This document shows, one piece after another, positions 38,341-63,531 of a DNA stretch of 64,000 nucleotides (its first letter is position 1; every line of letters begins with the position of its first letter). This DNA is from Marasmius tenuissimus. Taxonomy: Eukaryota; Basidiomycota; Agaricomycetes; Agaricales; Marasmiaceae. The stretch spans positions 310,001 through 374,000 of the forward strand of contig JAQOTA010000046.1 of assembly GCA_029532415.1 (NCBI GenBank), written 5' to 3'. The notes under the pieces were generated by a model, which ran no database searches, had not been told where the DNA came from, and was given only the letters and a program-made list of their open reading frames with translations. The translations under genes and the position numbers were made by a program.

Positions 38341-38342
38341 TC

Positions 38343-38356
38343 TGGAGCCCGACCTT
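38343..38356 (+). other. Primer-binding-like site
   Basis: TGGAGCCCGACCTT starts two bases after the left LTR. The leading TGG would pair with a tRNA CCA end. I cannot assign the tRNA. Confidence 0.5.
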
Positions 38357-38530
38357 GAGGGAAGGATCTAGTTTAGAGTGTACTAGTGGTAGATAGTGAA
38401 GTCTGTTTAAGAATTATACAACTTTTGCTGTTTCGTCCAAGTTAGGAAGTCACCGTACATTCACACCGATTGAGCTTCACTTCCGAAGCTCAGTTACTCA
38501 AAAGAGATTGCTCCAGTTTTAAGGAACAAA

Positions 38531-38860
38531 ATTCCTAGAGACTCGGCGATCTCATCTGCAGCTGGTTCAGGGTCAGTCAACGACTACCTGCCTACCAGAA
38601 GAACGAGAAAGAAGATTCCGGTTATTCCGGGAGCTTTTGAAGAAGAAACACCTGTACAGGTGGAAACCACACCTCCGAAGATCCACGTTTCAGGATTTGG
38701 TTCTGAAGACTCAGAATTAAGCCCTCTCACGGACTCGTCTGAGGAAGTAGACAGACAAGTTATTTCGGGACGAAGAGTCACTGACGCAGGAACTACCTCC
38801 GGCAGGACTTTGGCATACCAGAATCGGACTTTACCTTTCAAACACCTCAGGAACGAGTAA
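38531..38860 (+). pseudogene. Element F gag, N-terminal part
   Basis: An open frame without a clear ATG. It is bas-ic then acidic (DYLPTRRTRKKIPVIPG, GSEDSELSPLTDSSEE) and stops at 38858-38860. Probably the disordered N-terminus of gag, separated from the capsid part by a stop and a frame change. Confidence 0.5.
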
Positions 38861-38894
38861 ACCCAAAGTAAACCTCGATCTTAACACCGCGATC

Positions 38895-41800
38895 TTGGGA
38901 CTTAGATTTCTCAATGTCATTAGAAAGAACGACGAGCTTCAGAAGATCATTCGGAAACGAAGTAAGAAGGACCCAGAGTTTCGCCTAGAACAAAAGAGAA
39001 AGGCAGCGCTTCGGGGCTTTCATCATCAGAAGTTTAAAGTTCGTGTACTACCACCAGAAGAGAAATCTGATTCCGAAGACACGATGACAGAACACATAAC
39101 GAGAGAAAGTTGGAGAGATCTGACTGATGCGCAGAAAGAACAGGTGGCGTCTGAAAAGGGGAAGGCGCATAAGTTCCCAGTGGCGTTTCAGGGCAATACG
39201 GAAGACGAATGGCTCTGTTGGTTCGACGATGTCGAAGCAGCCTTTGTTGCGAAAAAGATCACTATGGATGAAGCAAAGATATTTTGTGCTATTAGTAGCA
39301 TGAGTTACTCGCTTCGGAAGGAAGTAGAGACTCTTAAATCGAGCAGAGGACGCAGCTGGGAGGAATTCAAGAAAGAAATTGAAAGTGCATGGGCTATAGA
39401 CGCCAAGTACGGAAGCCATGAAGCTCTGAGGAGGGTCATTGATGAGTTCGCTACGACACCTGATACGTACTATCAATGGCAGGTAAACAGGCCGTTCAAG
39501 GATCGATCATCGGGTTCTACACAGGGCGTTAGAAGCCTTTACTCACAGTTCTGTAAAGTTCAGTAATTGTACGGACTTCTAGGCTGCTGGTAAGCAGGGC
39601 ATGGCGGGTATCTGGCGGGTGACGTATGAGAATCTCATCTTCCGCCTGATGCCATCCGGCCATGTCGTCGGGATATGCACCCTTCCAACAGTGTCAATGG
39701 CGCTCTCCTCCGCCACTTCAACTTTTGTCGTGCATGCATATATGTCAAAAACATACATTCCTTGCCGTCCCACTCAGGTTCATAAACAATGTTGTGATTG
39801 AGGTCATTGTAGTGATTGCGAGAAATTAGGAAATTTGTGGGTACCGTATATGTACGTTCGCAGCCTAGCAGTTGTGTTTGGTACCGGTCTGTCCAGCTCA
39901 CCGCAGATATATAGATGTCAGACTCCTGATTCCTGACTACCTTATAAGCGGTACAATGTAGTGATATATAAGATAACATAAGCTGAACATACTTAGTACC
40001 TCAGAGCGACAATCCGCCCGCCGCTGCCTGTCTTTTGCTATTGTACAAATCTTTATCGAGCTGGATGACGGCGGGCGCCGGCAGCTTGCTCGTTGAACAT
40101 TAATGCTCCAAGCCCACGCCTCGTGAAAGAAGGTAATCCTATTACATTGGTGAGGTCAGTCCCCGCATATCCATGGCTGCAGGTTGCTCTTCATTACCAT
40201 GTCTTTTTCTCGTCTTGACCCCCCGCACCCCGAACCGCGCTTGTGACCAAAGAATATGCTTTTGTTCAAGTCGTTGGCCCAGTTTAACTGTTGCGGAAGC
40301 GGCGCACAACACCAGCCTTCATGCATCGGTCGTGAACCAGAAGAGATATCTGATAGAGGGGCCGATACTCGTGTAGGAGCTACTACTAGACGTATTCAAT
40401 CACTGATCAGCAATATATCCAGAAAACTCATCACACCACCTTCCAATTCGTTGTGTTTCTCCCTCGCTTCTGTCTTCTTCAATCTGGCGTGTTCATGGCC
40501 AGGCTTCTCGTATCTAGCGCTGTCGGCAGGCCAGTCAACATCCGAGACTAACAACGCTGAGAGTGTTTGAGCATAGCTCGGTATTCGTTCCATAGTATCT
40601 GAATCGTGTCGGGAGGCACTCTAGAGACCTAGCGCATCGGTATTGGTGCATCGGAGATATGGGGCATGGTTTACAAAGGATGGAAGAGAGAGCAAAGAGG
40701 AGATTGGGTCGATAGAAAGTTCGAATGTGTCATGCAACGGTGACTGAGAGCAGCACCGTAGGTAGCATCTGTTTTTTGGCCCATCACTAAATATTTTCGT
40801 TATTTGTATTGTCTATATTCATTCACAAGTCAAACAAAACAATGTTAGATGAGAAAGAAACTGTGAGTCAGGCGATATGGGACACACCTTTGACTATTGA
40901 CTCTTGAGGGTACCAACGAGACTTTCCTCGACTCTTCCTCCTTCCTGACAACCTTTGCCAGATTTAATTGGGGAACATTGATCAATGAGCCCTTATCTAT
41001 TGAAATATGAGTTTCTGGGGTGAGAGAGCGAGGATGGTTTCCAAGGTGCTGGAAGTAAAGGTGAAAGAGGTCTAAAGTCGTATGGCGCGCGCGGGACAAT
41101 AGCTTCCACGGTACACTCAGGTTCGTCATCTCAAACCCTTTTGATATATTTTCAACACCTTCTCGTACTCGCACCCCCAGAGAAATACATATCACCATTA
41201 GACTACCCCTTCTCATTCAGTATGTGTTTTTTCCTGATTTTTTTGACGTCGCACAAGCGTAGAACACACGGAACAGATTCAGTGTTCATCATATTACATT
41301 CAGTGTTTGTCATCTTATACTCAGCGTTCATCATGGCCGCATTGATACTGTGACTCATACCGATATTGACATTCCACTGCATCAATCTACGAGGTACAGG
41401 GCAGCTATGGCCTGGAACTGTTTTATATATTCGTCTCCTTCAAGTACCGCTGATTATCCCTTCTGTAGTCTACGAACTCGTCGAGGAGTCTTCTTCCACA
41501 ATCGGAACGTCTGCGACACGACCTCAAGCCCGGCAAAAGTACCCCAAATCCGGTCGTTGGAGAAAAGCTTGTCTTGCAGCACTGAAAGCCTTGAAGTCGG
41601 GCCTTCGTAAACACAACCTCCAGTCAGGTATGCTAGTCTGCAAGTTCAGGTTGAGGGGTACGAAAGGTATATCCGAGTGGATGTAGCCAAGATCGGATGA
41701 ATGTGCTGTCGGTTTGAGCTGAAGCAGAGCTTTCGGAGCCTCCTGAGTTTTTTTGCGATTTCGGCGCAACAAGTGTTTGCGAGCTAGATGTGTTTGGAGT

Positions 41801-43385
41801 ATGGTTGAACGGCATTGAGCGACATAGGATGTGGTTGATGAACGCACCGTAGTCATCCTGTGATCCCCGAGAACCCTAGCTCCTCAAAGCTCCAGTGGCC
41901 TCTTTTTAACTTCTGCCACACATCGTTGTGAATGGTTCAGACTTCTGCACTTGGGATTGCCATTGCCTCGGGGCTCACATCCTCTTCTGGATATTATATC
42001 ATGACCTGAGATGATGTGTTAGCGGAAAAGAGTGACATGTGATGAGAGATGGTCGGTAGTGGTCCATATCCTCCGTCATAAGAGATTATAACATGACCAT
42101 AGGCACAAGAGTGGCGATGGACAACCAGAATACTGAAATGGAATGGATAACCCAGGAAGGGAGGAGAAAAAAATGGACGACTCACCTTATACCAGGTGGC
42201 TCCAGGTGGTAATCGCATAATCTATAGGTCTCGGGAAAGATTGTGTACCAGACTGTAGCGCTGCACTGGTTGCAAGTACTAGAGCGGTGGTTAGAACAGA
42301 CTCCAGATCGTGAAGGCAAGGATGCAACCGAAAGTTGTACCACGTGGGCGAACGACATCACGAAATAGGTTATCGCCGGTCTGTCGATGCCATGAAACGT
42401 GCGTGTGGGTTACCACTGCTTGGTCTTTTTTCGACATATGTCGCCGGTGCTCGACATACGTATCTAAGTATGAGGCGGAAGGTGGTTGGAAGGGATCCCG
42501 ACGGCGAGAGCGCTCAGAGATTAGTGCATCGCGCTCAATCAATATTATTACTACGTCACCGCCTGATACCCGCCCGTCTTGCCTACCACTAGTACCAGCC
42601 TCCAGCCTAGAAGTCTGCACAATTAGTGAACTTTACAGAACTGCGAGCAATTGCCTCTAACGCCCTGTGTAAAGCCCGATTATCGATCCTTAAACGGCCT
42701 GTCTACCTGTCATCATTAGTGCGTATCAGGTGCGCTACGATGTCCCTACAAGTGTCAGAGTCTAGATTCAATGCCTTTGTTCGGAGGTTCCGAATGGAAG
42801 CAGCGAAACTTCAGAAGCCTCCGGCGTTGCTGTCCAACAAGACGCTAGTCTAAGATATGTTTCTGAAAGCGTTTGATTATATGGCGATGAAAGCCATTGT
42901 GGATGGATTGCAGATTAGAGCCCAAATGAAAGCTCAGACAGGGGTAGGCAATGCGGAAGAAAGCGACAGACGGAAGCAGGACCCTTACACCCTGGAGGAA
43001 GTGATTGATTGGTCAGGCGGAGATGATCATGAAGTCTGGGAGCGGATATACCTACATGCAGACCTCCTCGGAATCAAAGATGAAGAGGGACGCTGCGGAG
43101 GTACCTGTCCCAAGAGAAGTTCGGCAGGGTACACTTAGAACACCGGGAAAGTCTGAACCGGCGACGAAGACGGAATTGGACGATGATACCATGAAGGTGC
43201 TAGCGAAAGTGGATACCTACGATACCAAGCTGAAAACCTTCCAGTCGGACATGGAACAGTTCCAGACTAGGGTGATTGAGAATCTGCAGAAATCCGAGAA
43301 GACGCTGGATAATAATTTGGTGGAACTGCGGAAGCTGATTTCGGCGACGAGAGAAACGCCAAAGGCATCCTATTCTAGTGGGTAG
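38895..43385 (+). pseudogene. Element F gag capsid region, split by a transposon
   Basis: 38895-39456 encodes a retrotransposon gag capsid-like region (FQGNTEDEWLCWFDDVEAAF, SWEEFKKEIESAWAID). After removing the insertion 39457-42732 and one 8-bp duplicate, reading continues in frame at 42741 (RFNAFVRRFRMEAAKLQKPP). A TAA at about 42851 interrupts it; further sequence (FDYMAMKAIVDGL, DPYTLEEVIDW) and a coiled region follow in a shifted frame to 43385. Gag forms the particle that packages element RNA. Confidence 0.7.
39457..42732. mobile_element. 3.28-kb TIR element inside gag, 8-bp target duplication
   Basis: Both flanks carry CGCTACGA (39449-39456 and 42733-42740). The ends, CACCTGATACGYACTA, are inverted repeats, and similarity continues inward for well over 100 bp (including CAGGCCGTTYAAGGATCGAT and CAGTTCTGTAAAGTTCA). 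Excision in silico restores the gag frame exactly. An 8-bp duplication fits hAT or P-like elements, while the long TIRs are more like Mutator-like elements. No transposase is recognisable among the short internal ORFs, so it is probably non-autonomous. Confidence 0.85.
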
Positions 43386-43394
43386 AAACCACCT

Positions 43395-43856
43395 ATGAAG
43401 ACGGGAACCGCAATGCTGGGGAAAGCAGCTCAGGATATGTCAACAGGAACTACTTGTTTCATGTGTGGCAAAACCGGGCATATGGCGCCAGAATGTGATT
43501 ACCAGGAGGAATGTATTAAGAAAGGATGGATACGGAAGGGTGATGGAGGAAAGTACGTCTTATACGATGGCTCCCCGGTACCTTTCGTAAGATTCGGCGA
43601 GAACAAGCAGAGATGGGAAATCATCAAGGAGAAAGCTGAGGCTAACCACTGGCCTAACACCAGTGGAGGGGAAGACCCTACGGCGGTATTGTTCGCGACT
43701 GAGCAAGAACCAGGCCGGGAGAGCTTCATGCAGAAGACAGCCCCTGAAATAGCGGATCACTCGTTGATTAAGGAAATGGCTGGCAGACTTGGATCGATGG
43801 AGGATGTGATGGAGTCCTACCTTAATATGGAGTCGAAGGACGAGTCAAAAAACTAG
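43395..43856 (+). pseudogene. Element F gag C-terminus with CCHC zinc knuckle
   Basis: 154 codons including CFMCGKTGHMAPEC (C-x2-C-x4-H-x4-C), the nucleic-acid-binding knuckle of gag. Separated by an in-frame TAG (43383-43385) from the capsid region. An acidic tail ends at 43854-43856. Confidence 0.8.
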
Positions 43857-43867
43857 AACGACCAAGG

Positions 43868-45158
43868 ATGGAGCGCAGAAGCTCACCTCGGAAGAGTTCT
43901 GTGACTCCGGAGGTTCCACAGGTAGTAATACCACCAGCCCCACGAGCTATTAGAGAGTGGAAGCGGGAGCAAGAAAATAAAGAAAAACCACAAAAACAAG
44001 TTAGAATTTCTGAGCCTGAGGTTTCTGTTTCTGTTCGACCTAATACACCGCCTCCGAAGCGTATGGAGATTAGAGCGGTTGTACCAACAATTGATACCCA
44101 TGCATCTTCAGATGAGGGAGAGGAACCCTCCGAGGAATCTGTAAGTGTAAACCCCGTAGGAGGAAAGACTGGGCGAGATAAGGACCCGACCCCAGTGACT
44201 ACGCCACCTCCTTCGGCGAAACGCCCTTTTGACGATGTACCAGCGGTAACCAGACCGGCTATACCCAGAGATCACGTCGTCTCTATTAGCGATGTTACGG
44301 GAAATGTTCGTCATGTCACCCCGAACACGAATACCCTAAGACTTTCGAAGGGACCACACAGGCCGCAAGGTCCAGGCGCCTCGGAAGCACCCAAAAGGAC
44401 ACTTATTAAGTCCACAGATGTGGAGGAAGATATTGTGGAGAGGATGATGAAGCAAGAGCTTTCTGTGACGCAGGAGGAGTTGCTAGCCATTTCTCCAGGA
44501 GTTAAGAAGATCTTCCAACGCAAAGCTCGAAACCGAGCTATTCAACGTACTTCGGTGGAGTCTTTTATTCGGGAGATTGCCTCCGAGGACGTTGCGAAAG
44601 TTGAGAAAGTGATTGGCACGGAAGCGTCGTACGTTGTTCAAGTATCTGACATGGACCTGGATGAACAGTTCGAAGTTCTGAAGGTTGCAGTTGGAGATTT
44701 GCCCGCCGGGGCGGTGGTTCAGAAGGACATTACCGAAGTGTTTCGACAAGATATAGAGTCGAGCGACCGCAGCAAGATCATTATTGTTGCGAGCACCTCG
44801 GATGCACTGAGGTCGGTATATCCTAAAATCAACCAATCGGATGAGGTGGAAAGCATCTTGGATAGCGGGTCGCAGATCATTGCCATGGATATTGATGGTC
44901 GCTGTTGGGCTCGGTGTACATTGGGACCCAGATACAGTTATTCATATGCAGGGTGCAAATGGACAGTTGAAGAAGACGAGAGGACTGGCTCGTAATGTGC
45001 CTTTCCGCTTCGGCGACTTGACATTCTACTTGCAACTGCACATCTTAGATAGCGCACCGTACAAAGTGCTACTAGGGCGGCCATTTGATGTATTAACAGA
45101 ATCACAGAATTCACAACTATGCCGACGGGTATCAGGAATTGACCATCGGATGCCCTAA
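43868..45158 (+). pseudogene. Element F aspartic protease with long N-terminal extension
   Basis: A long Pro/Glu/Ser-rich region (about 190 residues) precedes a helical segment and the retropepsin core. The active site is ILDSGSQIIAMD (D-S-G). The frame shifts by one just after it, at about 44900. In the second frame the rest of the fold reads VHWDPDTVIHMQGANG, LARNVPFRFGDLTFYLQL and APYKVLLGRPFDVL, the last matching the usual 'ILLGRPF' flap/end motif. Another shift near 45130 leads into a short C-terminal tail (YPRGQGKEIVPRK). The protease would cleave gag-pol. Confidence 0.75.
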
Positions 45159-45975
45159 CTCAGGACAGAGGTCAACATTCGGAACTTATCCGAGGGGACA
45201 GGGTAAGGAAATCGTGCCTCGGAAGATCGAGCACACCCTGAAAGATATGGGACGACCCTCGGAGGAACAGCAGTCTGCTGAAGAAACGGAAAGTGATAAG
45301 GAACAGCCTCAAGATAATAACTACTCTTCGGAGGAGGCTGGAAATTTTCACGATACCTTGATGAACTGATCCCAGATCAGGGAGAGGTGGCGGTAGTACT
45401 CGAAGCGGATGAAGCTGGGCAAGTCCATATAACGAAAGTCAAGATTCCAGATCAGAGAAAATTTGATGATAGAGAGCTTGCGGAAGCATTTATGCTGGCC
45501 TTCGAGCCAGAGGAAGCTGAAGCGGCAGAAATGCTCGATGCGTACGTCAACCAAACCATCGAGGATGGAAAGTGTGTATATAGTACTTGGCGTGAGAGTC
45601 TGGATCGGGAAACTCCGAAGATCTACAAACGGTGAAGTCAGTGTTTGGGAAATACAAACCGGTTGCCCTGAAGGTGAAACCTGTCAAAGCTCCGCTGCCG
45701 GGAGAGTTCAGAGTGGAAAGGAATATTGAAGGGGATCCATTGGCGGACCTACCTGAACTGCCTGTTCACCCTCCTGAATTTCAACCGACAGGTCGATGCA
45801 CTATCTTATGATGGTGCATGAGTCTGCGTTTGCCTGGAGTTTGGAGGAAGGAGGATCGTTCAGAACTGACTTCTTCCCACCGGTTAAGTTTCCCGTTCTA
45901 CCGCACACACCTTGGGTAGAAAGAAACATACAAATCCCCCCGGGGAATTTCGAACAAGTATGTGGCATTATTAAG
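45139..45975 (+). pseudogene. Element F pol linker and RT N-terminus (RT core deleted)
   Basis: Frames in this stretch encode an acidic linker (about 45387-45635) and then FFPPVKFPVLPHTPWVERNI followed by QIPPGNFEQVCGIIK, the segment that normally leads into reverse transcriptase. At about 45975-45985 it jumps directly to RNase H sequence. The palm motifs, including Y/F-x-D-D, are missing. Several stops and frameshifts are also present. Confidence 0.65.
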
Positions 45976-47835
45976 GATCATTCTATATCAAGTGGACCCA
46001 GACAACCCGAAGAAGAAGCATTACGACTGGTTCGGATCTACACCTCTCAATGAACGAGAGGCCAGGTTTTCACAGCCTAAGAGAGAACTATTCGGTTTGA
46101 AAATCGCCTTACAGGCCACTTTCTACCAGACATATGGATGTCGACCGTTAATAGTTGAAACGGATGCCAGCTATATTAAAGGAATGCTGGATAATCTGAG
46201 CTGTGGACCTAATGCTACTATTAATAGATGGATTGAAGACATTCGGAAGTACAAATTCGAGTTGGTACATGTCAAAGGAGCTACACACGGACCGGATGGA
46301 TTATCTCGACCACCGCCCGGAGGCATAGAAACGCCTCGAGGAAAGGAGGAAGAAGATGCGGCTTGGGATGAAGACGACGGAGAACCTATTCCATTTACTT
46401 TGGGGGAGGGAGAATCCTCGTTTCCCTATGACTTCGACGAGTATAAGCATACTATCGATGCTCGAGGAGGGTATTCGTTCAAGCTGGCTACTTCGGAAGA
46501 GGATTTTCAAGACGAGTTGCAAGCTGCGGAAGAAGATGCGCGAGTTTGGACTTGTCAGGTCCAGGATCATATGCGACAGTTTTGCTCGGAGGTGATGGAA
46601 TGCTTCGGTAATTACTGGGTAGTCCCTCCGCAGCCAACGCAAGATTGGATCGATGAAAATCCGTACTCGGAGGATCATAGATCTGAATACGCAAAGAACC
46701 AAGATTATGAACTTCTGAAGATTAGGAAGTACTTAGAACACCCGCTTTCGAATTCGCTGCACATGCCCAAGTCGGCTAAGCAGAAATTCATTGCGAAGTG
46801 TAGTCGTTATGCTTTGTACGACGACAGGATGTATAAGCTGAATCTGGATGGCACTGGTCAGCATAAGCTGATAGTGAGCAAAGAGAAAAGGGTGTGGATG
46901 ATGTCGGCAGCTCACGATAAATGTGGGCATAAGGGTTTATATGCGACAATGGACCTCATAGACAAGAGGTTCTGGTGGCCTGACATCGAGGGAGATGTAG
47001 ATTGGTTTATCAAGTCGTGCAAAACCTGCCAGGAACGCACCATGACACTTCAGAAACTGCCTCCGACCTTGACTTATACACCGTCGTTATTCCAAAAGAT
47101 CCATATTGATGTTATGAAGATGACGCCTGCTGGCAACGGGTGTCAAAATATTATACACGGAAGATGCGCACTTAGTAGTTGGCCCGAAGCACGAGCGGTA
47201 AAAAGAGAATCAGCCCGGAGCATTGGGGAATGGCTATTTGAAGATTTCATTTGTCGCTGGGGATGTCCCGAAGAGATAGTGTCGGACAATGCCCCTCAGA
47301 TGACGAATGTTCTGAAGTGTGTAGAAGAGAAGTATGGTATACGAGGGATCAAAATCTCGCCGTACAACTCACCTGCGAATGGAAAGATTGAGAGAGAGCA
47401 CATCTAATGATAAGAGAAGCGTTAGTACGGGCTACTAACGATGATCTGAAGAAGTGGTGGTGGTTTTTGAAGCCAGTCCTGTGGGCCGACAGAGTAACGG
47501 CTCGTCGAGGCCTCGGATGCTCGCCCTACTTCTTAGTAACTGGTGCGGAACCGATACTACCGTTGGATATAGTTGAATCTACTTGGTTGGTAAGGACACC
47601 CGAACGCATTCTCACTTATGGGGAGCTACTAGGCTTTCGAGCCGTGGCTTTGGCTAAACACCGAACCCATGTAGAGGAGATGATTACCAGGGTGGACGCC
47701 AACAAGAGACAGGCACTTCGGCAGTTCGAGAAGCAGCACCAAAATAGATTAAGGAATTATAATTTCGCTCCTGGAACTTTAGTACAGGTGCGGAACTCAC
47801 CTATAGAAATGAGTAATCTGATAAACGTACCAAGA
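45976..47835 (+). pseudogene. Element F RNase H and integrase
   Basis: RNase H: YQVDPDNPKKKHYDWFGSTP, RELFGLKIALQATFY, VETDASYIKGML and HVKGATHGPDGLSR. Integrase: zinc-binding H-x3-H...C-x2-C (HDKCGHKG ... CKTC), catalytic D in HIDVMKM, D in VSDNAPQ and E in NSPANGKIERE. The frame is open to 47405, where stops follow EHI. It then resumes in the next frame (REALVRATNDDLKKWW, TARRGLGCSPYFLVTG, LPLDIVE) to about 47800, ending NFAPGTLVQVRNSPIE. The normal integrase C-terminus is missing because the sequence switches to the antisense gene region. Confidence 0.8.
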
Positions 47836-48019
47836 AAGTAGCCAAGTCGGTAGCGATCATGGGTCTGAACTTGGATTTGGTGGAGATGGCGTCCTTAACA
47901 TCGTTCATCTTCTCTCGCAGAGTAGCAGCATAAGTGTCAGGATCGAATAGCATGAAAGCGCCTTCGGAAGCAGCAGTGCCGCCACCGATGGTACGACGTC
48001 CAGGAGGTTTGGCAGACAT
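47831..48019 (-). CDS. Antisense gene 2, first exon only
   Basis: An ATG at 48019 opens 63 codons (MSAKPPGRRTIGGGTAASEG, then MLFDPDTYAATLREKMNDVK, ending ATDLATFL), followed directly by a GTACGT donor at 47830. A TATAAAAG box lies at 48133-48126, about 110 bp upstream of the ATG. Beyond the donor the minus strand becomes the complement of integrase, so the remaining exons have been lost at a deletion junction near 47800. Function is unknown. Confidence 0.5.
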
Positions 48020-48125
48020 GTGGCAAAAGGATGGGAGATGAGATTGGGAAGGGCGAACTTCGCAAGGAATGATGGGCAAGAGAATGACTGTGTGTCGATG
48101 AGGAGACAAGGCGAAAATAGACGGT

Positions 48126-48133
48126 CTTTTATA
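48126..48133 (-). promoter_or_regulatory. TATA box of antisense gene 2
   Basis: TATAAAAG on the minus strand, about 107 bp upstream of the ATG at 48019, with a pyrimidine-rich stretch between. Confidence 0.5.
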
Positions 48134-48235
48134 CCTTGGAAGCACATGGAGGTCGGGATTTTGGGGATCTGAGGTCCCTCCGAAGTGAAGAAAAAAAATA
48201 AATTTTGCGAGTCCGGAACAATGGGTAAACTGCCT

Positions 48236-48275
48236 ATCAACGGGGACGTTGATTTTCTTTTGCTTTGGGGGAGAG
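48236..48275 (+). other. Second polypurine-tract-like site
   Basis: CGGGGACGTT...TTTGCTTTGGGGGAGA here closely matches the segment just before the right LTR (52552-52582), but no LTR follows. It may mark an old junction where a related element ended. Confidence 0.4.
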
Positions 48276-48814
48276 GGACTAAAATTTTGTGATTTCGACG
48301 AATAAGCGCCCTCGGAGTCAAAACAATTTGACTTCGAGAATTTGAACGAATTTGACGGTTCGGAGGTGCCTGAATAGAGTGGCTCTGAACCACAAGGATA
48401 ATAAAACCGAGCTTCGGAAGCTCTAGCCATCGGCCGAGCGAAGTTCTGAAGACAGAAGTGACGGTGGGGAGCTGAAAAGAAAACAGCTCGTACGCCTCTG
48501 CTTGATAGATTTTCAAGTTTCGGAAGCGTTACAATGGACTTAAAAGTCTGAAAGGCTTTTGAGGCTCAAAACTTAGAGTCACACCAGAAGTGAAAGACAA
48601 GATAAGAAAATTTTATAAGTCTCATAGGGACGAAGGACTAGTAATTGTACAGAGATTTAGAGTCCAAGGGACTATGAACTACACAAGATATAGAGTACTT
48701 AAGAAAGTACTGAAAGGAGTTGATAATACAGAATTTAAAAGTCCGGGGGACTATAAGGCTACACAAGAAATAAGGTACAAGGGTACCCGGATAGATCTGA
48801 AGACAAACGTAATA

Positions 48815-51800
48815 TTAATCCAGAGAAGACAAAAGGCCACCCTTCTAAGATAAAAACTTGGTCAAAGTGGTGAATAGGATAAGAAAGAGGGACTTACACG
48901 AGAAGGACCAGCAGCGGGAGCTGGGGTCCCGGTGGGAAACTCGGAGGTAGATGGAATCATCAGGACGTCGCCCCGAGCCTGGTTCCGAAGATAAGGGGTA
49001 CCATCTGTGTGACGACCGAATTGAAGAGGTTCGGGAAGCTCAGAAAAGTCCCATCCGAAGACTGAGCATAGCTGGATGATGGTCGGCATGCTGAGCTGAA
49101 AATCGGGGTCGTTGCGGGAGAGATGGCGGAGGATGTCTCGAGGGTCGCGGCAGCACTCCCGAAGCTTCGCAACCAGAGCCGCATCACGATCGGCGAGCCG
49201 CTGGATCTCGGTGTCCAAGTCGTTCCGAGCGTTGATAAGCTTCTCGACGGTACGCCGACCGTTGGCGATTTCCTCGAATTGACGGCTCAGTCCTGAAAGA
49301 AAGAATCAGAAATGTAGGAAATAAAGATAGGAAGAGGAGGGCACGTACCAGCTTCGCTGCTTTCCCCCCAGTCTGCGCAGAGCTCCTTCATCTTGTCGAA
49401 CTCCTCTGACGGACAGCTCATCACGCATGAAAGTTTCTTCTGCACGCAGAAGAGGCACTTCCGAGAGTTGGAAAGTTTCGAAGGGCCGTCGGCAGGGAAA
49501 GGGACGCATGTCTCTGGGTGAAGCACGCAGCTGAAACATACCAGCTTTGAACGACCCAGAGCAGGCTAAAAGAGGGAAAGTTAGGATCACGAAATATAAG
49601 CAATGAGGCGGGAGCACTCACTGCACGCATCGGAGCCGTAGCGTTGACGAAGTGGTTGACATGGAGGTCAAGCTGACCTGGAACCGAGAGGTAGCCACGG
49701 AGGTCTAAGAACCAAAGTCAGAAAACAAAACAAAAGGGAAGGGACAGCGGGGAAACTTACCTCGGATAACACCGTCAGGGACACCAGTTTGACCTTTTAA
49801 CAAAAAGTACCCGTTGACCGGGTCCCAGAACTCAGACTTCTCCTCGTCGGCATTGTTGGTACCGGGAAGTGAAGTCCAGAGCGGGGCAGGCTATGAAGCA
49901 GGTCAGAACTAGGAAAAGAAACAGAATAAACGGAAGGGAGACTCACCGACTTGTTAGGAGTACCCAGAACGGAGTCCACGTCACGGATTTCCATGTCTTC
50001 GTAAGAGTTCAAGTCAGGAGGAGGTGTTCCGTAATGAGGGCGCTCATAAAAACGTGCGCGGGAACGAGAGCCTGAGTGCTTGTGCCGGGGTTCCTTCGCC
50101 TTGCCGGAGGTCTTCGCCTTCTTAGCAGGGGGAGAGTCGGATCCACTAGACTCCTCATCCTCGGAGGCGGGAGCTTCCGCAGCGGACGGAGAGAGAGATC
50201 GAGAACGGTGGCCCGAGGCAGACATCAAGCGAGCTCGAGTAGAAGGCTGAGGCTCCGGGGTAGAGTCGCGCTTCCGCTTTGAGGTTAATGGACCGGATGA
50301 GGGACGCATCTGATGAAAGAAGAATGAGAGAAAGAAATGACCAAGCCAAGAAAAGAAAACCGACGGTAGGAATGACAGCCGTTGAGCTACCTAGACGCCT
50401 CGGAGCGTTCACCGTCCGACCGATTCGGGTCTGTAAGGGATAACTCAAAATAAGGATCTTAAAAGAAAGAAAGGAAAAGATGAGAACGGACCTTGATCAC
50501 CGCCGCGGAAGGGGGAATTGGAGGTGGGGTTTCAGAGCGGGGACGTGGTACTCGGGGGTTCCCCAAGTTCTTCAGGGAAGACAGAGCCTCCCGACGCTCC
50601 TTAACCTCACGACTGGACATGGAGTGTTCTTCGATGTCTTTGTCGTCCTCATCACCCTCGTCGTCCTCGTTGTCTGTGACCACGTTATTCTAAAAAGGGG
50701 GATAAGTCAGTTAGGAAATGAAATTATCAGGAAGGAATACCCACCTGAACAGTGGCTTCAGAGTCAGCCGCGAGTTGAGCCGTCTGGTGACTACCAGCAG
50801 CTCGAGTGCTAACCACGTTGCGGAAGGTCTGAAGAATAGGAAAATAAGAATTGAGAATAAAAGAAATAAGATGAAGGATGGACTTGCCGATGCGAAACCA
50901 GAATTAGTGCGCAGTGCGGAATCATCGTCGACGTTCATATCATCGTCTTGATAGTCCGAACGAGAGATGAGAGGGCGACTTGGGAACACAGGAGCCGCCT
51001 CTCCCTCCTCGTCAGAATCACCATCCGAAGAGGAAGATGCGGATTGGCGCTGTCAACGAAGAGTTAGTAACAAACTTGGAACCAAAGACAAGAACCTTGA
51101 AACTCACCCTAGATCGAGGACCCCAGTGTTGATGATTCGGAGACACGGGATGACGGATGCGAGGTCGACGGTGAGTAGGAGGAAAGATTGGAGTCGGCAT
51201 AATGTCTCCGAGTTGCTGAGAAAGAACGAACCTGTTGATCGCCTCAGCAGGAGCGGGAGGAGGTTCGAAGTCGTCGTCCGAGGAGGAAGCAGCCTGAGGA
51301 TCTTCAGGTGGATCGGGGACAACGTAGGACGATTCTCGAGACTGGAGATCGTGAGCGGAGACATGATCCTCCGAAACGCTGACAGCATCGGAGGAACCAT
51401 CGTCAGCGTTGCCGCCCTCAACGACCCTGGAGGGGCCAGCCTGAACAGTATTGTCGTCGTCGTCGTCACTAGCGTCGATATCGATGGTGCCGAGGTTCTG
51501 AGAGGGAGCCGGCGGTGTTGATGGCTTCAGAGACAAGAAATGGCGGTCCATGGCGGAGTCCGGAAGTTCGGAGAGGTCAAATGGCTGCATGAGAAACAGT
51601 CAGCTGAAGAAGGGACGGCTAGGGGCGAATAACTTACTGAGCAGCCCTTCCGACGCAGCTTGCCGCGCTGAGCTGGAGATTGTGGCCACCAACCTCTAAC
51701 CATCTTTTTGAAGGGTTCGGAGGCGTTGACATGGGAATGGCAAGCATCGACGAGCGTGAGGATGAAGGAACCGGCAAAGGTGTCCTCCATCCCTCCGCTG

Positions 51801-52068
51801 TCAGATCGAAGCTGAGAGAGTTGGACCTGAAAGGAGACTGTGTCAGAAGAGGAGAAAATAGGAGAAAGAGGGAGCGGAGACTTACCAAGTTCCTCTTATG
51901 CTTCTTGAGTAGATCGGTCAGCTCCTTCCGGGAGTTGCTCTGATGGATAGCGGCGCCGAGCTGGCGGAAAGTGAGCAAGATGTCGTACAGAGGGGAGATG
52001 AAAGGACGGAAGCCAGAAGGGATATCGTAGTTTTGGAGGGCGAGAGTAACGAGGCTCGGAGGGGCCAT
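48815..52068 (-). CDS. Antisense gene 1 in element F, 13 exons, unknown function
   Basis: Exons on the minus strand: 52068-51886, 51826-51638, 51584-51108, 51049-50888, 50828-50745, 50689-50492, 50430-50391, 50309-49947, 49890-49761, 49704-49622, 49565-49349, 49292-48898, 48844-48815. Nearly all introns are GT-AG and 44-81 nt; the one after exon 4 is GC-AG (GCAAGT). All joins keep frame except exon 7 to 8, where the best donor is off by one, so a weaker donor or a frameshift is involved. The product is about 850 residues: a helical N-terminus, acidic Ser-rich linkers, a basic nuclear-localisation-like part (PLTSKRKRDS, PAKKAKTSGKAKEPRHKH), a Cys-rich cluster (VCFSCVLHPETC ... RKCLFCVQKKLSCVMSC) resembling a fungal zinc cluster, and a coiled coil before the C-terminus. 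It is not a retroviral protein. I infer a nucleic-acid-binding nuclear protein. It starts 57 bp after a TATA box. Confidence 0.7.
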
Positions 52069-52124
52069 GAGGGGGGTCTGCGGAAGTGGGGGAAATATGG
52101 GGACTTGGCGAGAAAAACGCTGGT

Positions 52125-52132
52125 CTTATATA
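52125..52132 (-). promoter_or_regulatory. TATA box of antisense gene 1
   Basis: TATATAAG on the minus strand, 57 bp upstream of the ATG at 52068, with a pyrimidine-rich leader between. Confidence 0.6.
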
Positions 52133-52565
52133 GCCTCAGAAGCACCCCCTCGGCAAAGTTCGAAACTGAACCACAACCGCCACATTCGGCAATTTGCGTG
52201 ACCTACGGGAAGAACCGACGGGAACCTCCGCAGTCTGACTCGCCTATGACCTCAGAGGCTGACTGATGGACTTAGAAATATTCGTGACTTGGAAGTTGAA
52301 CCATTCAAAGTCACTAGGTGGATTGGAAGTTCACTCGATTTGGAAATAGAACATTGGGGAAGGTTCTAGGACCCGGGTAGGATCAGATCGGCCTAGCAAC
52401 GAGTGATCGGCTGTGCTCCGACCAGCGGAAATTAATTGGGAAACCTACCTCTGAAGAACAGAGGGTCGGAAGTCGTCTGATGGCGTGGGAAAACGTCAAT
52501 GAAGAAGGATGGATGCGCGCTAGAGCCCCTCCGCTTTACAAACAGTAGACCGGGGACGGTCTGGA
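52133..52565. other. Upstream region of antisense gene 1 / 3' untranslated part of element F
   Basis: Non-coding between the antisense promoter and the purine tract. Rich in CTCCGA and TTCGGAAG-type words that recur throughout element F. Confidence 0.4.
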
Positions 52566-52582
52566 TTTTGCTTTGGGGGAGA
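52566..52582 (+). other. Polypurine tract of element F
   Basis: TTTGCTTTGGGGGAGA directly precedes the right LTR (TGTAGCG). This is the position where plus-strand DNA synthesis is primed. Confidence 0.7.
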
Positions 52583-54689
52583 TGTAGCGCCTGCTATTGA
52601 AAAGCAGATTTGGAGCCTTGTTTTTGTGCGATTTTAGCATAAAACAGATAATAAATGACTAGGTAATACGAGTACTAGAGCGAGTCCCGAGCGGCTAGGA
52701 AAAGGCTCAGATCCTAGTGTAAGGAGAGAATAGCGCCTCGGAGGTGCCTCTCCTTATCTCTGAAAACTGTAGGGGTCGTATAGCTGAAGAAGTATCACTT
52801 CGGAGGCACGACTAGGACCTGTAGTCATATCAAGGGAATATCTCCAGTGGCTCGGAGGCATCGTACTAAGAATTAGACTAATATAATCAGACTTGACGAA
52901 GACCCATACTAGTAGAGCTAGACAGAGGAAGTCACCACGGAAGCATGGATGGTCGGAAAGCAAGACTAAGTCAAGCCTCAGAAGTTTGGTATCAGGTCAA
53001 GGCCTCACTTCGGAGTGCATGATTGATTCAAGTATACTAAGTATACTACGGGTTACGCTAATCATCCATATTGGCTAGAGCTACCTTGTCCCAACCGAAG
53101 TAATTATCTACGTCGGAGTCTTCAGGATAATAAGAATCAATGAAGGTTTCATGGTCCAGATAATCGGTATAGAATGGATCGCATAAGATAGGATTATAGA
53201 AAGAGAAGGATTGAGAAAGCCAATGACCCATGATGGGGGAGTACTTGAAGAACGAGAGCTTGGTATAATCAAGCTTCGGAGGTGCTGGGCACTCAGCACA
53301 ACTGACGACGGCGTCGATCCAAGCGTTGACGGCTCCAGGAGTACGAGCGGTTTTGAAGTCGAGGAAACCAACTCGAGCAATGGACTCGGCGACCATGTCG
53401 ATGACAGACCTGGCGTCGTGAGGAATGAAGTGGTCGAAGGTGTCCCCGCAGATAAATTTCGTCCTGGATCATGTCGTAACGAATCACGTAGCCCCCATAG
53501 ATGGATCTGTGGCGACTGAGGAAGAACTGCTGGAAACTAGGAAATTAGCGCTTCGGAGGCGTGGATCAGAACCAGGCACTGGGCGCTAAACAATGATCGA
53601 GAAGTGATCGGAGGTGTTGCACCTTCGACATACCTCCCTTGTACTTGTACATTGAGACATTGACAGTACTAAGGGTATAAGTTGGCACTTGCAGCAAACG
53701 CAGAGCTCAACTGTACTAGAGGGCAAGGGACTAGGAAAGAAAGGAATGGCGCACCGAAGAATTGAGTAGGAGTTCTGGCTGAACAGTTGAACTATTACCC
53801 GATATCCAAGGTACCAAGATTGGATATAGTGGGGCGTCCATATGGATGGCAGGACGACAGAACTATCCAAGCTACAGAAGGAACATCAACCTGGCTATGA
53901 ACGGCTGGGTAGCTCAACGAGTATAGATTCCAAAACAGGTAGTTTATGCCTCCGAGGCATGGTTTATTCGATATTTGTACGATTCGGTAGAATTAGAGCA
54001 TCCTAGAGTATATAAGCAGTGGGGTTTTCATCAAGAATCCCCAAGCAATCCGTACGATTAGTATTCAGAGGATACGAAGCTATTCCACTTGTTGGGTAGT
54101 TGACTCGGGAGCGCTTCTGGAGAGACATTAGAACGGAATAGAACTTTGTTTGTCCGAACCTAGAAAATCCATTGAACACTTGCTTGACCTTGACTTTACA
54201 TTCTTTGTCTGCGACGCCGACTTGACTGGCTGAGCTATTGTTGAACTTCCGAAGCTAATTGGGCCGAGGATATTGTTCGCCGTTGACAGTTGGTCTTCGG
54301 TTATTGACAGACTTGATTGGAGTCTTATTGCCATTGTTTGATTTGATTGTCTTGTTGCCCCTCGCTGTTCGAGTGGTTCTGAAGCTAGTTGAAGCCTAAG
54401 AACGCACCTCCGAAGCACCAAACAAACTCTACACTCCCCGAAACAACCTATAAACCTCTCTTCCGAACCCCACTTTTGACCTCCGAACTGGTTTCAGAGG
54501 CGAAGCTACCTTAGTTGGATAGTTTCTTGAGTCAGATTTCCTTCAGCCTACTATTGCAGTCTGGCTAAGAGCGGAACCTACGATCAACGCCAATCCCCGA
54601 TTCCCGCACCCTTCAGCTACACTCTTGAGTGTTGGGAGGATTTGACCTACGAGTTAGATTTTATTATACACCGCGAGTGGCGCTTTACA
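52583..54689 (+). repeat. Right LTR of element F
   Basis: 2,107 bp, TGTA...TACA. Highly similar to the left LTR over most of its length but with a 360-bp block (53481-53840) absent from the left copy. Directly followed by gypsy RT coding sequence. Confidence 0.9.
53058..53508 (-). CDS. LTR-encoded antisense ORF, right copy
   Basis: Same protein-like sequence as 36820-37236 (one D/E to K difference near the end: FGWDKVALANMDD). Upstream it extends through IYGGYVIRYDMIQDEIYL to a TTTCCAG acceptor-like site, so the full exon may be about 170 residues. A small deletion near 53450 breaks the frame in this copy (CTGCGGGGACAC instead of CTCTGCGAGGATAC), so neither LTR copy is complete. A GTATGT donor about 117 nt upstream of the acceptor could supply an earlier in-frame exon. 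Confidence 0.4.
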
Positions 54690-56150
54690 CCGGTTTGTAA
54701 AGAAGAAGGATGGAAAACTCAGATTTGTACAGGACTATCGAAAACTCAACGAGTATATCATCAAAAATCGCTACCCACTCCCTGGTCACAGACATTGTCA
54801 ATCGACTCCAAGGTGCAAAGTATTTCACAAAATTCGATGTACAATGGGGATACAACAATGTACAGATTAAGGAAGGAGACAAATGGAAGGCCGCCTTTGC
54901 AACCAACAGGGGACTTTTCGAACTGAGAGTGATGTTCTTCGGACTCACTAACTCACCTGCTACGTTCCAATCTCTCATGAACTCTATATTTGCTGATCTT
55001 ATCGCCCTAGGAAAGGTTGCCTTATACCTGGATGACATTCTCATCTTCACCAGCACACAGGAGGGGCACCAGATCCCAGTTAAGGAGGTCCTGTCACAAC
55101 TCCAGAAACATGACCTTTATCTACGACCAGAGAAATGCCAATTCAAACAACAAGAAATCGAGTACCTGGGACTTCTGATCAGCGAGGGACTGTCAAGAAC
55201 GAGGCCAGTGACTAGGAAAACCCCTCAGGCCACCAACAGAGTCAAGAGTGTGAAGGATAGAAGATAGATTTGAGTAGGGCAAATGTAAGATAGTACATGC
55301 TGGATACAAGCACTATAAGACAAAGTTGTCAGACTGGGGAACTATCTAGAAGTGTCCATGATTATATATGACAGAGCCAAGCTGTGGAGATATCATGGAA
55401 ACGAAGGTAAAAGAGGAAAACTGAAAGAACAAGTGATAAGGATCAAGGGATACATGTGAAAACATTGTCATGATGAAAACCATATGGTATGCTGGGAAAA
55501 TATCTAGAAACAATGTGGAACACCAGGTAGTACCAGGTAATGATATGGAGGCCAGAATGCAATGGTGAGAACATGTAACTATGGGAAATAAAGAGAAAAA
55601 CATGAGGAAAAAGTATCCGGGGACCAAGGGAAGGGAAAACAGTGGGTGGATTTGTAACAGGGATGAGTATGTATGGACCCAGCTAAAGTTAAAGCCATAC
55701 GGGAATGGGCAACTCCTTGAAACTTGTGCGATGTCCAGGGCTTTTTGGGGTTTGCCAACTTCTATCGATGCTTCACTAGGGATTTTGCAAAATCAGCACA
55801 GCCATTAAATGACCTCACACGGAAACATGTCCCCTTTGACTGGGGAACTCAGCAGCAAGCAGCCTTCGACGAACTCCGAACAGCCTTCACCACTGCTCCA
55901 ATCCTAACACTTTGGGACCCAGATTGACTGACACACATTGAAGTCGATGCCTCTGGATTTGCTACATGAGGAGTACTGTCCCAGAAATTAGAAGATGGCT
56001 TATGGCACCCAGTCGCATTCCGATCAGCATCCATGCAGCCAGCAGAGAGAAACTACGAAATATGGGACCGGGAGATGTTGGCAATCATTGATGCCTTGAA
56101 GGATTGGCGATACTTTCTGGAAGGACAACCTCAGCCATTTAAGATCTGTC
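54690..56150 (+). pseudogene. Ty3/gypsy RT-RNase H fragment (element E)
   Basis: Starts mid-gene right after the element F LTR ([19 protein letters not shown] in mixed frames). It continues with [40 protein letters not shown] and the RT catalytic YLDDIL motif, to YLGLLISEG. A 469-bp solo LTR interrupts it. It then resumes in frame with MDPAKVKAIREWATP, QGFLGFANFYRCF and FDELRTAFTTAPIL, and RNase H residues (EVDASGFAT, RNYEIWDREMLAIIDALKDW) to about 56150. In-frame TGA codons at 55664, 55718, 55925 and 55967 are each one C-to-T change from CGA (Arg). Confidence 0.85.
55191..55659 (+). mobile_element. Solo LTR inserted in gypsy RT
   Basis: 469 bp beginning TGTCAAGAAC and ending TTTGTAACA, so it has TGT...ACA ends. 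It is flanked by GGGAC (55186-55190) and GGGAT (55660-55664), a 5-bp target duplication with one C-to-T change. It contains no coding sequence. Removing it restores pol continuity. Confidence 0.7.
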
Positions 56151-57937: not shown

Positions 57938-58196
57938 TGTTGAGGCAGAGGTCCTGCCCACGCAGTGGCAGCATGGGACAGACTAGCTCACCTGGAGATA
58001 GGCTTAAGAGGCAGCAACGAGAGTAGTAAAAGTACTGGTATTGCATGTAGATACAGAGCTACTTATATACTATACAGGTGTGGCTGTAGCTACTATATCA
58101 GGAGTGTCTAGGAATAGCATAGATCATAGTGAAACGATTGAAGCATAGATGCGGCCTGATACAACGGTCCATATATCCGGTAGTCCGGATTCAACA
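57938..58196 (-). repeat. Copia A 3' LTR
   Basis: 259 bp, TGTTGA...TCAACA perfect 6-bp ends. On the coding strand it is preceded by the purine tract GCGAGGGGGAG (58207-58197). Confidence 0.9.
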
Positions 58197-58237
58197 CTCC
58201 CCCTCGCTAAGTGCAGCACAAGTAGAGCACGAAGCGT

Positions 58238-60755
58238 CTATTCGGACGAATAAAATTCAAGTCCAAGATGTTCTCTAAAAGCGGAGAACTTGACATGACC
58301 CAAATTCTTGGTAAACATGTCCGCAGGATTGTAGGCACCATCAATAAAGAAAAGATCGACCTTACAGTCTGAAACACATTCGCGAATGTAGTGATAGCGA
58401 ATATCAATGTGTTTGGTGCGACGTTCTTGAACTGGGTTAGAGGCGATGAAAATCGAGCCTTGATTATCTCCACATATGGGTACGGGAGTCATATCAATCC
58501 CAAGTTCAGAGAGTAACTGTCGAATCCACACAGCCTGACGACTACAGTCGGATAGCGCCATGTATTCAGCTTCAGTGGATGAAAGCGCAACAGTCTTCTG
58601 GGCGCGTGATTGCCAACAGAAAATGCCACCTGCCAATTTGAAGAAGTAGCCCGTGATCGACCGACGCTTTACAGGATCTGCAGCCCAATTGGAATCAGTG
58701 AATGCTAATAAACCTCCGTCAGAGGCTCCATCATAGACTAATGCATAGTCTGGAGTTCCTGCAAGATAGCGGCAAATATGAAGCGCCTTCTTCAGGTGGT
58801 CCTCCGATGGATTAGCAGAGAATTGAGAAAGCTTTGTAACAGCGTAGGCAATATCTGGACGAGTGCCAAGCATGATATACAGAAGCGATCCAATCACTGT
58901 ATCGAGCGCGACGTTCGGGATCAACAGGACCTTCGTTGGGTTGTGGAATATAGCCGGCAGGAAGAGGAGTATCAGCTGCTTTTGCATTCTGCATGCCAAA
59001 TCGCTTCAAGACCTTCTTCAAATATTCAGTCTGGTCAAGAAGGATCTTATGGCCTTTGCGACGAATACGCATGCGCAAGAACTCTTTAACTTCTCCAGGA
59101 TCACGGCATTCCCAACGAGCCATAAACTCGGCTTTCTTCTTTTCGACAAAGGCTTTGTTGGGTCCAAGGAATAATGCATTGTCGACATAGATCAAAGCAA
59201 TACATTCTTCACCAGTCTCATGATCTTTACAGATAAAGAGACCTGCATCGGAAGTCAGGCGTTTGAAGCCCATTACTTCCATGGACGAGCTGAGGGCACG
59301 CCACCACTCAAGGGCAGCTTGCTCCAGTCCATACAATGCACGGCAAAGGCGATAGACTTTGCCTTCCTGACCCTTAACCTTGAAACCTTCAGGTTGATCC
59401 ATATAGATTTCTTCCTTAAGTTCGCCATAAAGGAAGGCGTTCTTCACATCCAATGCTTGAATGTGCCAGTTCTTGAGAGCTGCAAGTGCGAGCATCATCC
59501 GTACAGTTTCAAACCGTACAACTGGTGAGAAGATCTCATCAAAGTCAACACCTTCGACCTGAGAGAAACCCTTGGCAACAAGTCGAGCTTTCTTTCGACC
59601 GTCTGACTTAACGTCAAACACCCATCTGTTTTTGACAGCCTTGCGACCTTTAGGTAGGTCAACCAATTCGAAGACCTTGCGCTTGCGAAGAGCCTCTAGT
59701 TCATCGCGGCAAGCAGCCTTCCATTCTCTCTGCTGCTCAGCTGGCAGCTTCAGTATGTCACGGAGAGTCCACTCTCGAACGTTAGACATATCGGTGAGGT
59801 CATTGTGAATGGGAACTGCCCGATTTAACAGATAAATCACGAAACCTACTCCCCCTTCCTGGGATAATTGTTGCACTAAGCTATCGGGCTGACTCCCCCT
59901 GGAGTTACACATGGTAGACAGACTGGCACGATTAGTCCCAGGAACTTTTCTAGGTCTGCCTCTCCTACGAGTAGTAGGCGGATCCATGGGTTCTCTATCA
60001 CCCGTGGCATCTCTCCATGTAGAATTTCTCTCCATATCACGCACAATGCGCGAGGGATTATTTGGGTCTCGTTGTTCACCAAATACGTTATCAGGTTGCT
60101 TAGTACCCGTCCGTTTCCTGCCTGAACGCCTTGGCGGCGGAGACTGCTCTTTACCACCCACTGGTGTAGGTGGCCTGGGAGGCTGGAACGGAGGATCAGG
60201 ACCAGAGTGTTGACGTTCACCCTGAGGTACAGTACCATCTCCATCATCGTCATGAGGAGATTCCGATCGCTTTGGAAGGTTCTCGGGAGGATATAGATCG
60301 TCATCAGACGAATCATCATCACTATCCGAAGAGAAGTTGGGATTTTCACCCAATACCGGCGGTATTTCAGGGATTTCACCCACCGGGGTAAAGCCATGAG
60401 GTTTCTTATCAGAACACTTCGGGAACAAGTTTTCATCGAACAGAGCAGTAGCGCTTTTGAAGATAGTATTATTGGACATCTTCATGAAGACATATCCTTT
60501 CATGCCTTCCTGAAAACCAATGAAGGACATCAGTTCCGAACGCGGAGATAACTTGTTAACTCGACGCTTTTCCGGAATAAACGCATACGCTGCACATCCG
60601 AAGACTCGAAGATCCGAGACATCCGGTGCACTGCCATGCAACTTCTCATGCGGGGTCAACCAACGTAAACGCTGGGACAGCGTCCGATTGTGAAGTACAA
60701 CAGCGTGCAATATACAGAATTCCCACCAAGAAGGTGGAAGACAAGCATCAATCAA
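58238..60755 (-). pseudogene. Copia A pol: integrase end, RT, RNase H
   Basis: Frame 1 (60755-58812, 647 codons): integrase C-terminus (SWWEFCILHAVVLHNRTLSQ, FGCAAYAFIPEKRR), an acidic/Pro-rich linker, then RT (EWKAACRDELEAL, GRKAVKNRWVFDVK, ARLVAKGFSQVEGVDFDEIF, ALDVKNAFLYGELKEEIYMD). The catalytic motif is YVDN at residues 523-526, not YVDD, which should abolish polymerase activity. Near 58895 the frame shifts, and frame 2 (to 58238) carries IGSLLYIMLGTRPDIAYAV and RNase H (TDSNWAADP, SSTEAEYMAL, DNQGSI, VYNPADMFTKNLG-like). The ATG used is internal to integrase. Confidence 0.9.
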
Positions 60756-60933
60756 GATGTCGACAACACAGGTCCAGAACCGGTGTTAACGGTCTGCCCA
60801 TCACGACAGCGATCAAGCAGTCATGATGGTTATCGAGTGCAACAACCACAATAGCGCATCATCATAGGCAGCACTCAGTAAAGGTGCACATCCTAGAGAG
60901 CTTGCCATCGCAGGGCACATCGATAGGGCACCG
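60756..60933. other. Residual 5' internal region of copia A
   Basis: Non-coding, or in broken frames. It lies between the primer-binding site and the integrase fragment and marks the internal deletion that removed gag, protease and integrase core. Confidence 0.4.
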
Positions 60934-60945
60934 GGGCCCATAACC
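60934..60945 (-). other. Copia A primer-binding site (half-tRNA-iMet type)
   Basis: On the minus strand GGTTATGGGCCC directly follows the 5' LTR. It closely resembles the complement of the initiator-Met tRNA anticodon region (GGTTATGAGCCC), the half-tRNA primer used by copia-type elements. Confidence 0.55.
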
Positions 60946-61577: not shown

Positions 61578-61608
61578 TTCGCTCAGATGTGCTTTTCAGC
61601 TGCACTTA

Positions 61609-63490: not shown

Positions 63491-63531
63491 CACCCCCTCG
63501 CTAAGTGCAGCTAAAAAGCGCTCTGAGCGAA

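Follow-up and report, generated by a model that had tools for sequence, protein, structure and literature searches.

Spliced antisense genes in a Ty3-like LTR retrotransposon family of Marasmius

A stretch of 64,000 nucleotides from the agaric Marasmius tenuissimus (contig JAQOTA010000046.1, here called C30, positions 310,001–374,000; hereafter the window) contains a large long terminal repeat (LTR) retrotransposon, element F, which spans window positions 36349–54689 and carries spliced genes on the strand opposite to gag-pol. Comparison of copies across the genome demonstrates, at the level of sequence, that three such genes, A, B and C, recur as parts of the element and are maintained by selection on their proteins. 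We consider it probable that element F belongs, in damaged form, to a family of Ty3-like elements in Marasmius with spliced antisense genes, which follow one another on that strand in the order C, A, B, gene C lying within the LTR and genes A and B being transcribed from their own promoters and encoding accessory proteins.

Structure, recurrence and selection of gene A

Gene A was rebuilt from the minus strand, where it runs from an ATG at 52068 to a stop codon at 48815 and comprises 13 exons and 858 codons (exons 1–5, 52068–51886, 51826–51638, 51584–51108, 51049–50888 and 50828–50745; exons 6–9, 50689–50492, 50430–50365, 50309–49947 and 49890–49761; exons 10–13, 49704–49622, 49565–49349, 49292–48898 and 48844–48815), with 12 introns of 53–61 bp each. 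This structure agrees with the initial annotation, which was made from the letters of the window and had predicted an antisense gene of 13 exons and about 850 codons between integrase and the right LTR; the gene indeed lies between the conserved end of pol (47813) and the right LTR (52583–54689). The TATA box predicted upstream was also present (52125–52132, minus strand), although its distance from the ATG, measured from its start at 52132, was 64 bp rather than 57 bp. Likewise, gene A occupies the interval that had been assigned to a single gene, 47831–52132, but so does a 5′ stump of gene B, which the annotation had omitted.

We searched the genome with gene A, gene B and integrase and scored the best candidates, such that all copy counts given here are lower bounds. 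Twelve copies of gene A were compared, comprising the window copy (L001, or W) and 11 others of usable length (L002–L012); two further matches, a partial gene A where contig C20 ends and a fragment located at C35:790k, were kept out of the counts. When the exon model of the window was projected onto the 12 copies, GT..AG was found at 122 of 124 splice-site pairs, the exceptions being intron 4 of W (GC..AG) and intron 7 of the decayed copy C24. Introns 4 and 5 were counted in W and C24 only, as the sole carriers of exon 5; a single GT..AG intron stands there in the other 10 of 10 copies. Differences in exon length were divisible by three in all 12 distinct comparisons, and differences in intron length in 22 of 66, which is the rate expected by chance (C24, the duplicate C5b, exon 5 and introns 4 and 5 excluded). 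The TATA box was at −63 or −64 in all 12 copies, and the spliced frame was open in 10 (with C5a and C5b identical), the other two being C24, with six premature stops, and C7, with one. Deposited annotation matched the projected model exactly in two copies, C30a (P0003) and C30b (P0002), and for the window copy the deposited model was 15 residues short at the GC donor.

Substitution patterns, which the initial annotation had suggested as a check, revealed purifying selection. When C24 and the duplicate C5b were excluded, the ratio of nonsynonymous to synonymous divergence (dN/dS) was 0.04–0.19 in all 45 pairs formed by the remaining 10 copies; dS ranged from 0.03 to 0.66, and introns had diverged to a similar order. 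Ratios were higher (0.38–0.49) in the 10 pairs involving C24, in line with the decay of that copy. With six copies pooled, 50-codon windows of the codon alignment gave 0.03–0.10 from codon 600 onward, and codons 300–350, near the optional exon 5, were relaxed, with a dN/dS of 0.59. The gene A protein of C24 (P0007; L002, L021) displayed many arginine changes to glutamine, cysteine or histidine, which, as seen in the protein, are as expected of C-to-T mutation of repeats.

Selection on the protein frame also bears on the idea that control is exerted at the RNA level, with an antisense transcript silencing the element and the protein being irrelevant. Overlap of sense and antisense transcripts could yield double-stranded RNA, as proposed for plant elements in the available text of PMC7264820. 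With dN well below dS and with splice sites and frame kept, we nonetheless regard this account as quite improbable, although RNA-level control may operate in addition to a function of the protein.

A search with part of integrase identified at least 11 places in the genome, and at all 11 of them gene A stood to the same side of integrase, as expected if spliced antisense genes are carried by a large LTR element, as originally proposed (in C24 about 7.4 kb of extra sequence lies between integrase and gene B, and the C20 copy is cut by the contig end). That a host gene inserted here on one occasion, or that the frames are open by chance, is refuted by recurrence at the same position and by splice-site conservation, and we found nothing in its favor and give this explanation practically no credence: exon structure, constraint and position are the same in 12 copies, and independently deposited models agree. 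A one-off insertion or an absence of selection, which the initial annotation had named as grounds for abandoning its proposal, is thus not what we found. Its suggestion of a domesticated host gene found no support: every genome place listed was a described copy or, in the case of the C35 fragment, a match to gene A only that looks like a decayed copy, and no host paralogue outside the element was among the best-scoring places. Because selection has kept them working in most of the copies examined, the antisense genes are probably part of the element's way of life rather than a stray host gene.

Introns were retained in all 12 copies (11 or 12 introns each) and in the decayed C35:790k fragment, and no intron-less gene A was among the best-scoring genome places listed. 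A tblastn search had hinted that the C35:790k fragment was a processed, intron-less gene A, which we rejected because its nucleotide alignment continues through the introns, as in a decayed genomic fragment. These observations fit, and make concrete, the earlier argument that retrotransposition spares antisense introns: reverse transcription would copy sense-strand RNA, in which the splice sites of antisense genes would not be recognized, so that the introns would persist.

Besides this fragment, gene A was found without integrase in an array at C5:3500360–3517127 (L038, L039), a tandem LTR–gene A–LTR–gene A–LTR arrangement with three identical LTRs, flanked by the 4-bp duplication CCGT. In it, an LTR is followed by ten bases of the primer-site region, the promoter region of gene B, gene A and a further LTR, and this order is repeated. 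The array is a derivative without gag-pol and without gene B coding sequence, in which gene A is open.

Genes B and C and the proposed functions of the proteins

Most of gene B is missing from the window, where only its start region remains: the start codon (48019), the first exon and the start of intron 1 (47820–48019, minus strand), with a TATA box (48126–48133, minus strand) that starts at 48133, 114 bp before the ATG. The same distance of 114 bp was found in 4 of 4 other copies read. Intact gene B, as seen in C32, C30c, C7 and C30a, is an antisense gene of 6 exons and 364 amino acids between integrase and gene A, with GT..AG at 20 of 20 splice pairs and an open frame in all four copies. 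Its exons were detected at at least 10 genome places, including the window stump. Comparing C32 with C30a, we measured a dN of 0.013 and a dS of 0.131; C32, C30c and C7 differ among themselves by too few changes for judging selection.

Gene C is an antisense two-exon frame of 213 amino acids within intact LTRs. It was open in 8 of the 9 LTRs read (three of which are the identical C5 LTRs), with a frameshift in the right LTR of C32, and its dN (0.012–0.023) was below its dS (0.088–0.137) in 6 of 6 pairs compared. Both window LTRs carry broken versions: the left LTR has an antisense remnant at 36823–37263, and the right LTR an open 3′ part at 53468–53061, with the stop at 53058. Among the three genes, gene C is the least certain.

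The initial annotation had credited the gene A protein with nuclear-localization-like tracts, a cysteine cluster and a coiled coil. Among eight homologues, SKRKR was present in six, K-K/R-x-K-T in seven, and C-x2-C-x6-C-x16-C-x2-C-x6-C-x3-C in six, the two without the cluster being the decayed C24 protein and a model missing that stretch. As for the coiled coil, a long helix was seen at residues 701–749 of a poor AlphaFold model that otherwise had N-terminal helices and a mostly irregular middle. The cysteine spacing and the long helix after it are reminiscent of Zn2Cys6 regulators, whose spacing is C-x2-C-x6-C-x5..12-C-x2-C-x6..8-C; the middle loop of gene A (C-x2-C-x6-C-x16-C-x2-C-x6-C in 6 of 8) is longer than that range. 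A Zn-cluster Pfam profile gave no match with the C-terminal piece of gene A, so that we propose at most that the protein works like such a regulator, and not that it belongs to the family.

Gene A is most economically read as encoding a nuclear accessory regulator, and genes A, B and C are conserved element genes that probably encode nuclear accessory proteins. Genes A and B would be transcribed from their own antisense promoters, their transcripts would be spliced by the host, and their products would act as accessory proteins of the element, that of gene A perhaps by binding nucleic acid in the nucleus and regulating the element's transcription, nuclear import or integration.

Several observations weigh against this reading. 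The AlphaFold model of the gene A protein had a mean per-residue confidence (pLDDT) of 37.9 and a predicted template modeling score (pTM) of 0.22, with 682 of 843 residues below 50, leaving the fold of the cysteine cluster unproven. No Pfam match was obtained at E values up to 0.1 for gene A (P0001, P0007, P0005), gene B (P0009, P0015) or gene C; with E values up to 10, the C-terminal piece of gene A yielded only sub-threshold matches (best, DivIC, E = 0.042). NCBIfam returned a single chance-level match, for gene B, and a sequence search of the Protein Data Bank (PDB) returned none for gene A and none better than E = 0.2 for gene B or the C-terminal piece of gene A. Gene B is not in every copy, since the genome search found none of its exons in C30b or C5 and the window has only a stump. 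For gene C, only two of nine LTRs had TATAA 55–61 bp upstream of the ATG, which ruled out a general TATA box, supposed from one LTR. A regulatory role, finally, is read from protein features and plant analogues.

The position of gene A invites comparison with env, which in retroviruses sits between pol and the 3′ LTR, and the protein could be envelope-like or serve movement, allowing the element to spread from cell to cell. Its antisense orientation, its basic nuclear-type tracts and the lack of an env-like Pfam match make this very unlikely.

Relatives of the accessory proteins were sought in protein searches (using residues 590–858 as the gene A query) that rest on shared exact words, and the statements that follow concern the matches listed and are not a test of absence elsewhere. 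All listed relatives of gene A were from Marasmius, namely M. tenuissimus proteins (including the AAF712 series) and three AFHP31 proteins at 63–64%, and those of gene B were from M. tenuissimus, Marasmius sp. AFHP31 and M. fiardii (36%). In AFHP31, three gene A tags adjoin gene B tags (021543 and 021544 by 021542; 019582 by 019583), and three further gene B matches (021372, 021379 and 008150) had no gene A match alongside. A profile search with A1 listed five M. tenuissimus proteins among its matches and missed AFHP31 members of the alignment, and is therefore no test of absence; in IMG/VR, none of 95 pattern matches was a relative.

Gene A haplotypes and their carriers

Copies C32, C7 and C30c are near-identical in gag-pol (divergence of 0.000–0.001 over 2878 bp), with no changes over the 762 bp of the integrase frame and a divergence of 0.000–0.004 at the start of gene B. 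Two parts of gene A compared among the same copies diverged by 0.011–0.097, and for these pairs dS was 0.10–0.21 in gene A versus 0.008–0.011 in gene B. Between W and C32, dS was 0.198 for integrase and 0.643 for gene A. The excess divergence leaks beyond gene A, with parts of the promoter and right LTR differing by up to 0.030. From these sequence differences, gene A haplotypes look older than their carriers.

The differences within gene A fall in blocks. Up to alignment column 2800, C40 is 0–1% from C27 or C35; after column 2800 it is 0–2% from C7, C5a or C32; and from column 3600 it is 0–1% from C27 or C35. Breakpoints were supported in 6 of 6 pairs, picked after the block pattern had been seen, at a level reached in 0 of 500 shuffles; a four-gamete count (142) is inflated by recurrent change and was not used. 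The LTRs of C7 differ from each other by 3.9%, its left LTR being 0.6–0.9% from LTRs of C30c, C32 and C5 and 4.5% from that of C30a. Also, the 4-mers at the two ends are unlike in W (CCGC/CCGG; window 36345–36348 and 54690–54693) and in C30c (GCGA/CCGT), as if these elements were recombinant. Judged from the sequences, the block pattern, the C7 LTR mismatch and the unlike ends are the mark of recombination or conversion between copies, and misassembly of near-identical repeats could contribute. Point hypermutation as the origin of the divergence is not favored, because the differences lie in blocks and CpG transitions are a minority (for example, 28 of 120 between C32 and C7).

Diverse, recombining haplotypes also occur at recognition loci, and genes A and B could be cargo that benefits the host or some selfish interest unrelated to transposition, such as self/non-self recognition; retention of an open gene A in the gag-pol-less C5 array would also be in line with this. 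We think it unlikely, because the protein is conserved rather than diversified, with one 50-codon window alone reaching the 0.59 noted above, and because gene A stands beside every integrase copy found (at least 11).

A tentative and rather doubtful extension of our reading is a two-strand retroelement that has three spliced accessory genes opposite gag-pol, in which gene A is a recombining cassette with haplotypes older than their carriers, and in which the excess divergence could persist if rare haplotypes escape homology-dependent silencing arising from sense/antisense overlap. Silencing evasion as the cause of gene A diversity is speculation, and the low diversity of gene B, which is also antisense, argues against its simplest form. 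If haplotype shuffling is true, one retroelement module evolves separately from the others.

Known systems and anatomy of the element

Plants and at least one fungus are already known to have LTR elements with antisense accessory genes. In the available text of PMC7264820, Grande, RIRE2, Retand, PvRetro13 and the fungal element Boty are described as having antisense open reading frames (ORFs) between pol and the 3′ LTR; the roles suggested are nuclear or regulatory, and an examination of antisense and spliced transcripts is urged. The available text of PMC11963269 reports antisense ORFs in nearly all Retand clusters. Both texts, as available, call the function of such genes unknown, and gene23 of maize Grande is described in this literature as having its own promoter and a nuclear protein. 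Like the plant aORF-3R elements described there (Grande gene23, rice RIRE2, Silene Retand), the element F family has a long pol–3′ LTR region with an antisense ORF, and its occurrence in 11 of 11 integrase copies accords with the presence of such an ORF in all or most copies of an aORF-3R element. Unlike them, the Marasmius family has 12 introns in gene A, five in gene B and an extra antisense gene in the LTR; the word 'intron' is absent from the available text of PMC7264820 and PMC11963269, so that the contrast in splicing is a tentative one. TRP28 (PF04195) of Retand had no Pfam match at E values up to 0.1 in genes A, B or C.

Boty of Botrytis cinerea resembles the Marasmius family as a fungal LTR element with an antisense gene, brtn, between pol and the 3′ LTR (Zhao et al., 2011, via the available text of PMC7264820 and PMC8365987, the latter adding that brtn is missing from the latest B05.10 genome annotation), and differs in that its host is an ascomycete. 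No Botrytis proteins were among the matches listed for genes A and B in the searches by shared exact words. In bdelloid rotifers, the captured ORF3s of LTR elements are separate transcription units with spliced messages, which is also how we read the extra genes here; their types are env, DEDDy, GDSL, CC and TM, and antisense orientation is unmentioned in the available text (PMC5408684). Group I introns with antisense genes for homing endonucleases that are themselves split by spliceosomal introns (PMC9548176, in the text available) are similar in having an antisense mobile-element gene with such introns, but they are not LTR elements and do not replicate via a sense RNA genome. The open literature searched, which did not extend to the original Boty and Grande papers, yielded no account of a fungal LTR element carrying an antisense gene with several introns.

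HBZ of HTLV-1 is an antisense gene for a nuclear regulatory protein, with antisense coding linked to the 3′ LTR. Its likeness to the Marasmius genes is one of description, the numbers of introns and genes being different and a relation in sequence having been neither looked for nor seen; antisense retroviral genes such as HBZ are named in the available text of PMC11963269. What is new here, relative to known elements with antisense ORFs, is the multiple introns, the three genes, one of them in the LTR, and the recombining, older-looking gene A haplotypes. With its many copies, selection on proteins, strand-marking introns and the C5 deletion derivative, the family is well suited to asking what antisense genes do.

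Sequence features place the family among Ty3-like LTR retrotransposons, namely its LTR ends, its target duplications and its protease–RNase H–integrase order. The LTR termini are TGTA..TACA, and intact LTRs of other copies are 2702–2709 bp; copy C7, of 20,137 bp, has LTRs of 2,705 bp each and a 4-bp target duplication (GCGG). In copy C30c, protease, RNase H and H2C2 integrase scored above their Pfam cut-offs, with YVDD in between, and the zinc knuckle scored just under its cut-off; the Pfam reverse-transcriptase model and an above-cut-off rve were not found in this copy. At 10 of 10 element ends read (W, C7, C30c, C5, C30a and C32), the 4-mer adjoining the LTR was NCGN, a CG-centered 4-mer that is likely an integration-site preference. 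As regards targeting of chromosome ends, no telomere repeat was seen in the first 400 bases of C30.

The window's own element F is a defective member of the family. Its left LTR (36349–38340, plus strand) is shortened, and compared with full LTRs of about 2.7 kb both it and the right LTR (plus strand) carry internal deletions, which differ, so that the two are not a fresh pair. The remains of gag-pol (42733–47813, plus strand) match zinc knuckle, RNase H and integrase. Relative to other copies, pol lacks about 660, 70 and 950 bp near 45620, 45800 and 45978, the YVDD motif falling in the missing stretch of about 950 bp, and the integrase frame ends at 47404, short of the conserved pol end. Directly before the right LTR is a purine-rich stretch (52567–52582, plus strand), which by its position we take to be the polypurine tract; its gggggaga also precedes the LTR in other copies. 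The gag region is interrupted by an insertion (39457–42732, no strand assigned) with 130-bp inverted ends that are 86% alike; this 3.3-kb insertion, absent from C32, C7 and C30c, is probably a DNA transposon.

Elsewhere in the window, positions 18739–19552 hold a tandem array whose 253-bp unit (99% identity between two units) consists of two half-units about 70% alike. Positions 57938–63906 are another rearranged repeat element, with a 262-bp direct repeat (98%) in copies 3 kb apart and, beside it at 61203–63906, long inverted repeats of 385, 256 and 96 bp (94–95%).
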